DNA of 64,000 bases from Akkermansia sp. GTDB lineage: Bacteria; Verrucomicrobiota; Verrucomicrobiia; Verrucomicrobiales; Akkermansiaceae. Position numbers and translations under genes: made by a program. The stretch lies in assembly GCA_017555205.1 (NCBI GenBank), contig JAFZGW010000024.1, forward strand, positions 1 to 64,000, written 5' to 3'. A model generated the notes under the pieces. The model was not told where the DNA came from, did not search any database, and was given only the letters and a program-made list of their open reading frames with translations. Each line of letters begins with the position of its first letter. Position 1 is the first letter of the stretch. Below, piece after piece: positions 18,790-18,871 of this stretch.

Positions 18790-18871
18790 TACTCGAGACG
18801 GGACTCGAACCCGTACAGGTCGCCCCACTAGATCCTTAGTCTAGCGCGTCTACCAATTCCGCCACCCGAGC
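18790..18871 (-). tRNA. tRNA-Leu with anticodon AAG
   Basis: An 82-nt class II tRNA on the minus strand. Acceptor GCTCGGG/CTCGAGT (two G-T pairs), D-arm typical of bacterial tRNA-Leu (GGCGGAATTGGTAGACGCG), anticodon stem CTAGA/TCTAG with loop CTAAGGA, a long variable arm, T-arm ACGGG TTCGAGT CCCGT and discriminator A, the leucine identity base. The loop puts T33 before AAG and G at 37. AAG pairs with CUU; with A34 deaminated to inosine it would also read CUC and CUA. Bacteria normally use GAG here, so the adenosine at position 34 is unusual. CCA is not encoded. Confidence 0.88.

Follow-up and report, generated by a model that had tools for sequence, protein, structure and literature searches.

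The tRNA-Leu(AAG) gene and its surroundings

The window, by which we mean the whole stretch of 64,000 nucleotides analysed here, is contig C58 of the source Akkermansia MAG (G000; 2.2 Mb, 84% complete, 70 contigs). On its minus strand, ARAGORN calls a tRNA-Leu(aag) at 18789-18872, and the Rfam covariance model RF00005 gives a match (Table 1) that scores 54.3 bits against a gathering cut-off of 29; because its E-value is 6.5e-9, a chance match can be dismissed. The long variable arm and the leucine anticodon place the gene among class II tRNA-Leu genes, T33 precedes the anticodon, the anticodon stem consists of five pairs, and the G1-U72 pair at the acceptor end recurs in close relatives.

An earlier note on this DNA had proposed a tRNA-Leu with anticodon AAG, loop CTAAGGA and T33, and had judged the rest of the molecule intact and probably functional. 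ARAGORN and the Rfam tRNA model both confirm the gene, ARAGORN its anticodon as well, the strand (left unstated in that note) is minus, and the intact arms, the promoter match and the intrinsic terminator agree with a functional gene. A base-call error or shifted loop, which the note had named as the case against it, is ruled out by the AAG gene in isolates and by a 47-base core shared with four further Akkermansia genomes; a pseudogene is ruled out by the arms, promoter match and terminator. We conclude that the gene is real and functional-looking.

Table 1. Features of the window in and around the tRNA-Leu(AAG) gene.
Feature	Position	Strand	Remarks
tRNA-Leu(AAG) gene	18790..18871	-	class II, A73, CCA unencoded, G1-U72 at acceptor end; ARAGORN and Rfam
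Anticodon AAG (A34 A35 G36), loop CTAAGGA	18835..18837	-	ARAGORN and sequence
Sigma-70-type promoter match	18899..18927	-	TTGCAA, spacer 17, TATAGT; 1 found against 0.4 expected in shuffles
Intrinsic terminator	18752..18786	-	15-pair stem, T-rich tail, begins 3 bases past the tRNA; z -7.3
Small repeat protein	19003-19461	-	tandem repeats SGNTTRYY(D/N)KSGSF, signal-like start
Two successive ORFs	16722-18685		325 and 329 aa
Phage tail protein	10207-10869	-
Phage head-tail adaptor	11624-13282
ORF of phage family of unknown function	13379-14434

At the equivalent upstream place, most of the Akkermansia compared have TTGC-type and TATA-type boxes, and in other Akkermansia hairpins that differ in sequence lie directly downstream of the gene. 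Such boxes together with sequence-divergent hairpins indicate that tRNA-Leu(AAG) forms a single-gene transcription unit under selection.

Several neighbouring features deserve mention in their own right. A small repeat protein adjoins the tRNA promoter and two successive ORFs lie just downstream of the terminator; neither the repeat protein nor the two ORFs have a Pfam match. Nearby phage-type genes (10207-14434) represent a prophage or a remnant of one. Elsewhere in the genome, a phage-like contig (L392, G000:C65) that encodes an Erf-like annealing protein, a dUTPase and a replication initiation protein carries a tRNA-Ile(AAT)-like gene with loop CTAATAA (1995-2064) and a second, weak tRNA-like gene (1607-1687).

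A reduced set of tRNAs for CUN codons

Across all tRNA places of G000, ARAGORN finds leucine tRNAs with anticodons CAA, TAA, CAG and AAG and arginine tRNAs with ACG, CCG, CCT and TCT; neither tRNA-Leu(GAG) nor tRNA-Leu(UAG) was found in this 84% complete MAG. It had been suggested that the A34 tRNA replaces tRNA-Leu(GAG), a view that a GAG gene coexisting with a silent AAG gene would have undermined. This replacement is supported: GAG is absent from G000 as well as from its relative G024 (99% complete, identical 47-base core), and the AAG gene, with its promoter match and strong terminator, does not look silent.

Might the missing genes exist but have escaped assembly? The source MAG is incomplete and fragmented, and several other tRNAs (Gly, His) are missing from it. 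We nevertheless consider this explanation very improbable for the CUN set. In G024, where the tRNA set is otherwise fuller and includes Gly and His tRNAs, the leucine and arginine sets match those of G000 and ARAGORN again finds no tRNA-Leu(GAG) or tRNA-Leu(UAG), which rules out an assembly gap as the reason for the absence of UAG. Furthermore, a pattern search across 37 genomes of the genus recovered AAG in 32, UAG in nine and GAG in none (0/37); since UAG was seen in nine genomes, the pattern is able to find it. A looser pattern applied to 76 genomes is consistent with these counts among the matches listed.

The genus thus exhibits two states, AAG + CAG + UAG, as in Lactobacillales, and AAG + CAG alone, as in the source clade. 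More than a replacement of GAG by AAG appears to have taken place, since the source clade has lost tRNA-Leu(UAG) too. Codon usage does not mirror this loss: in 91 long ORFs of G000, CUU, CUC and CUA make up 0.168, 0.212 and 0.035 (145 codons) of leucine codons, respectively, and long ORFs of G024 have 21.0% CUC and 4.4% CUA, compared with 1.0 and 2.5% CUA in two UAG-bearing Akkermansia. CUA is not avoided by the clade without UAG.

Probable inosine at position 34

I34 is the known way for tRNA-Leu(AAG) to read CUC and CUA. Since CUC (21% of leucine codons) and CUA (3.5%) are both used by a genome with neither GAG nor UAG, TadA very probably converts A34 to inosine by deamination. G000 has one TadA equivalog, located outside the window (G000:C13:63745-64182), which scores 161.9 bits against the model for tRNA adenosine(34) deaminase (NF008113; equivalog cut-off 150) and has the zinc motifs HAE and PCPMC (PCxxC). 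The anticodon arm of tRNA-Leu(AAG), GACTAAGGATC, is identical to that of the genome's own tRNA-Arg(ACG), GACTACGGATC, at positions 30-40 except for base 35. That TadA might have to extend to this tRNA had been anticipated in the earlier note; the missing GAG gene, the TadA equivalog, the Arg-like arm and the use of CUC and CUA all fit, and from these we infer deamination. With considerable confidence, we therefore read the gene as that of a working tRNA-Leu whose A34 would be deaminated by the single TadA, with the resulting tRNA-Leu(IAG) expected to read CUU, CUC and CUA and tRNA-Leu(CAG) to read CUG. Where UAG is lost too, TadA should be required for three of the four CUN codons.

It is improbable, in our estimation, that A34 instead stays unmodified, with the tRNA reading CUU and, weakly, CUC, and superwobble or other leucine tRNAs reading CUC and CUA. 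Some bacterial A34 tRNAs do remain unmodified (Thr and Ser in Oenococcus, PMC8072771). tRNAs with unmodified A34 can read some C-ending codons, but their partners are mostly U-ending codons alone (PMC11066159). CUC has no other cognate here, yet is used more than CUU (0.212 versus 0.168), and the loop CUAAGGA matches the editing motif YUAMGRA of S. pyogenes (PMC11472039).

Distribution and origin of tRNA-Leu(AAG)

Of the 384 genomes searched in the class, 77 match a strict AAG pattern, two or three of these matches apparently arising by chance outside tRNAs. The gene is present in most sampled Akkermansiaceae (f1, the source's own family; most genera), in four further families of the order (f2, f4, f5 and f6, in the case of f4 via a full tRNA set) and in two families of Verrucomicrobiota outside the order (f13 and f31). 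GAG is carried by family f3 and by one f2 genome (G051). Most named records with this type of tRNA are Akkermansia MAGs, and ARAGORN also calls AAG in isolates, namely Akkermansia glycaniphila Pyt, Luteolibacter marinus, Haloferula luteola and Haloferula sp. BvORR071. In the genome-contig scan two Myxococcota were matched, and in Nannocystales, the order to which one of them belongs, about 25 of 29 genomes have AAG with the same GACTAAGGATC arm. Because the strict pattern overlooks variants (in f4 the AAG gene carries TATACGC in its D-loop, and G116 and G249 deviate close to the T-arm), we do not treat absence from a pattern search as proof by itself.

tRNA-Leu(AAG) is the norm across Akkermansia's order and the sampled Nannocystales, contrary to the expectation that it is rare and limited to a few Firmicutes. 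We found no literature report of the gene in Verrucomicrobiota or Myxococcota, in a search whose coverage did not extend to an earlier survey (Rafels-Ybern, 2018), the title of which reportedly includes 'two bacterial phyla'. This tRNA type has been regarded as nearly confined to lactic-acid bacteria and their relatives, and a 2026 survey assigns almost all bacterial tRNA-Leu(AAG) to Bacilli (PMC13249217); here it is usual throughout the order that includes Akkermansia and in the majority of Nannocystales sampled.

How did the gene come by its arm? In its acceptor stem, GCTCGGG, the AAG gene agrees with the GAG genes found in f3 and G051, and it has the arm GACTAAGGATC in place of their CGTTTGAGGGGCG. 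This need not reflect selection by TadA, because tRNA-Leu(UAG) of relatives has an arm, GACTTAGGATC, that is close to the Arg-like one; judging from these sequences, the arm may as well have come from exchange with the tRNA-Leu(UAG) gene as from selection for TadA. The AAG genes of f13 (L127-L134) and f31 (L116-L125), on the other hand, retain the loop TTAAGG and are apparently direct G34-to-A changes of GAG. In genus g79 (f31), one genome has GAG and others AAG.

TadA and residue 152

If tRNA-Leu(AAG) is edited, TadA has to accept A35. In E. coli TadA, R26 and R152 narrow the C35 pocket, which may explain the rejection of other bases (review, PMC10586758). All 31 AAG genomes of the order have Ala at position 152 (E. 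coli numbering; located through the ungapped FF..xR motif), whereas all six GAG genomes have Arg there, and it is the sole alignment column that fully separates the two. In contrast to E. coli TadA, the S. pyogenes enzyme (2NX8), which has Gly at this position, achieves full editing of tRNA-Leu(AAG) (PMC11472039). Family f4 offered a further case: it has Ala152, yet the pattern search returned neither AAG nor GAG. From Ala152 we predicted beforehand that f4 would have AAG or lack GAG, and the full tRNA set of one member (G043) showed AAG. Among Nannocystales AAG genomes, 24 of 26 TadAs have Ala152, the other two Ile and Leu. The TadAs of GAG bacteria in this comparison come from Akkermansia's class and a few solved structures, S. 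aureus and B. subtilis being taken by us as GAG bacteria from a statement on Bacillales and general knowledge.

Related genomes may share both residue and anticodon by descent. To correct for kinship, we drew contrasts on a TadA tree computed with column 152 left out. Its well-supported branches provided only five that were independent: three for the association, none against and two, f13 and f31, neutral; the corrected test gives p = 0.25. In a comparison of the kind envisaged in the earlier note, between TadA and Arg-only enzymes, residue 152 separates AAG from GAG genomes of the order, but the association does not reach significance once relatedness is corrected for, and the link is best described as only suggestive.

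Mechanistically, Ala at residue 152 in place of Arg might open the base-35 pocket such that A35 is tolerated, with the Arg-like anticodon arm supplying the remaining recognition, a proposal to which we give roughly an even chance. The AAG gene also occurs in families f13 (Lys152) and f31 (Arg or Lys152), so that a small residue is unnecessary for having it; the AAG tRNAs of these families may escape editing or be edited in another way. As a separate observation, one f31 genome (G126; L117), which is 97% complete, carries tRNA-Leu(AAG) while the TadA search gave only a RibD-like match, making it a candidate for unmodified A34. Nor can Ala152 be strictly required for editing, since about 15% editing of an AAG tRNA bearing an Arg2-type loop is seen with E. 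coli TadA, an R152 enzyme, and A37G abolishes this activity (PMC11066159). Given a fitting arm, then, AAG is a weak substrate even of an enzyme with Arg152, in keeping with a model in which the role of residue 152 is to increase editing efficiency.

Alternatively, TadA may edit the tRNA but owe its range to other features, namely the SNPPLNH insertion, position 26 or the C-terminal tail, with Ala152 a mere mark of ancestry. We regard this as a serious contender, albeit one somewhat short of an even chance. Besides the non-significant corrected test and the Lys or Arg at 152 in f13 and f31, it can draw on the one-residue insertion (SNPPLNH) specific to f1 in the alignment and on the C-terminal extension proposed for S. 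pyogenes TadA (PMC11472039). The insertion, however, is absent from the AAG families f2, f4, f5 and f6, which rules it out as the cause, and position 26 is ruled out as the separating residue, AAG and GAG genomes overlapping there and being fully separated only at 152, a residue already singled out by structure work.

With natural Ala and Arg versions of residue 152 within one order, widening of the TadA range is directly testable. If its specificity is wider, TadA would also be expected to edit further A-to-I sites in mRNA, at UAAG within tRNA-like loops.

Comparison with known systems

Chemistry and enzyme are known; what is new are the phyla, the reduced two-tRNA CUN box and the testable residue. 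Tentatively, and with somewhat less than an even chance, we suggest that in at least three phyla TadA independently gained tRNA-Leu(AAG) as a second substrate along one and the same route, through an arm like that of tRNA-Arg(ACG) except for base 35 and a residue 152 shrunk to Ala or Gly that would admit A35, and that part of Akkermansia then lost UAG, which would leave one inosine tRNA as sole reader of CUU, CUC and CUA.

The closest parallel is tRNA-Leu(IAG) of Lactobacillales (Streptococcus, Oenococcus). There as in Akkermansia, the CUN box has an A34 tRNA-Leu instead of GAG, TadA is present, the loop fits YUAMGRA and, in S. pyogenes, TadA is also small at 152. G000 and G024 share the A34 gene and the lack of GAG, with inosine in their case predicted from sequence. 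They differ, phylum aside, in that Lactobacillales keep tRNA-Leu(UAG) (PMC13249217), as do other Akkermansia (9/37), whereas the source clade does not, so that I34 would be needed there for CUA as well as CUC.

The two-tRNA logic itself, I34 plus C34 for a four-codon box, is that of the bacterial CGN box with tRNA-Arg(ICG) and tRNA-Arg(CCG). The arm likeness to tRNA-Arg(ICG) notwithstanding, the Akkermansia case concerns leucine, a class II tRNA and the anticodon AAG. The eukaryotic I34 set made by ADAT2/3 likewise includes tRNA-Leu(IAG) rather than a tRNA with GAG; in Akkermansia, unlike in eukaryotes, TadA is homodimeric, would have one extra substrate only, and the U34 partner has been lost in the source clade.
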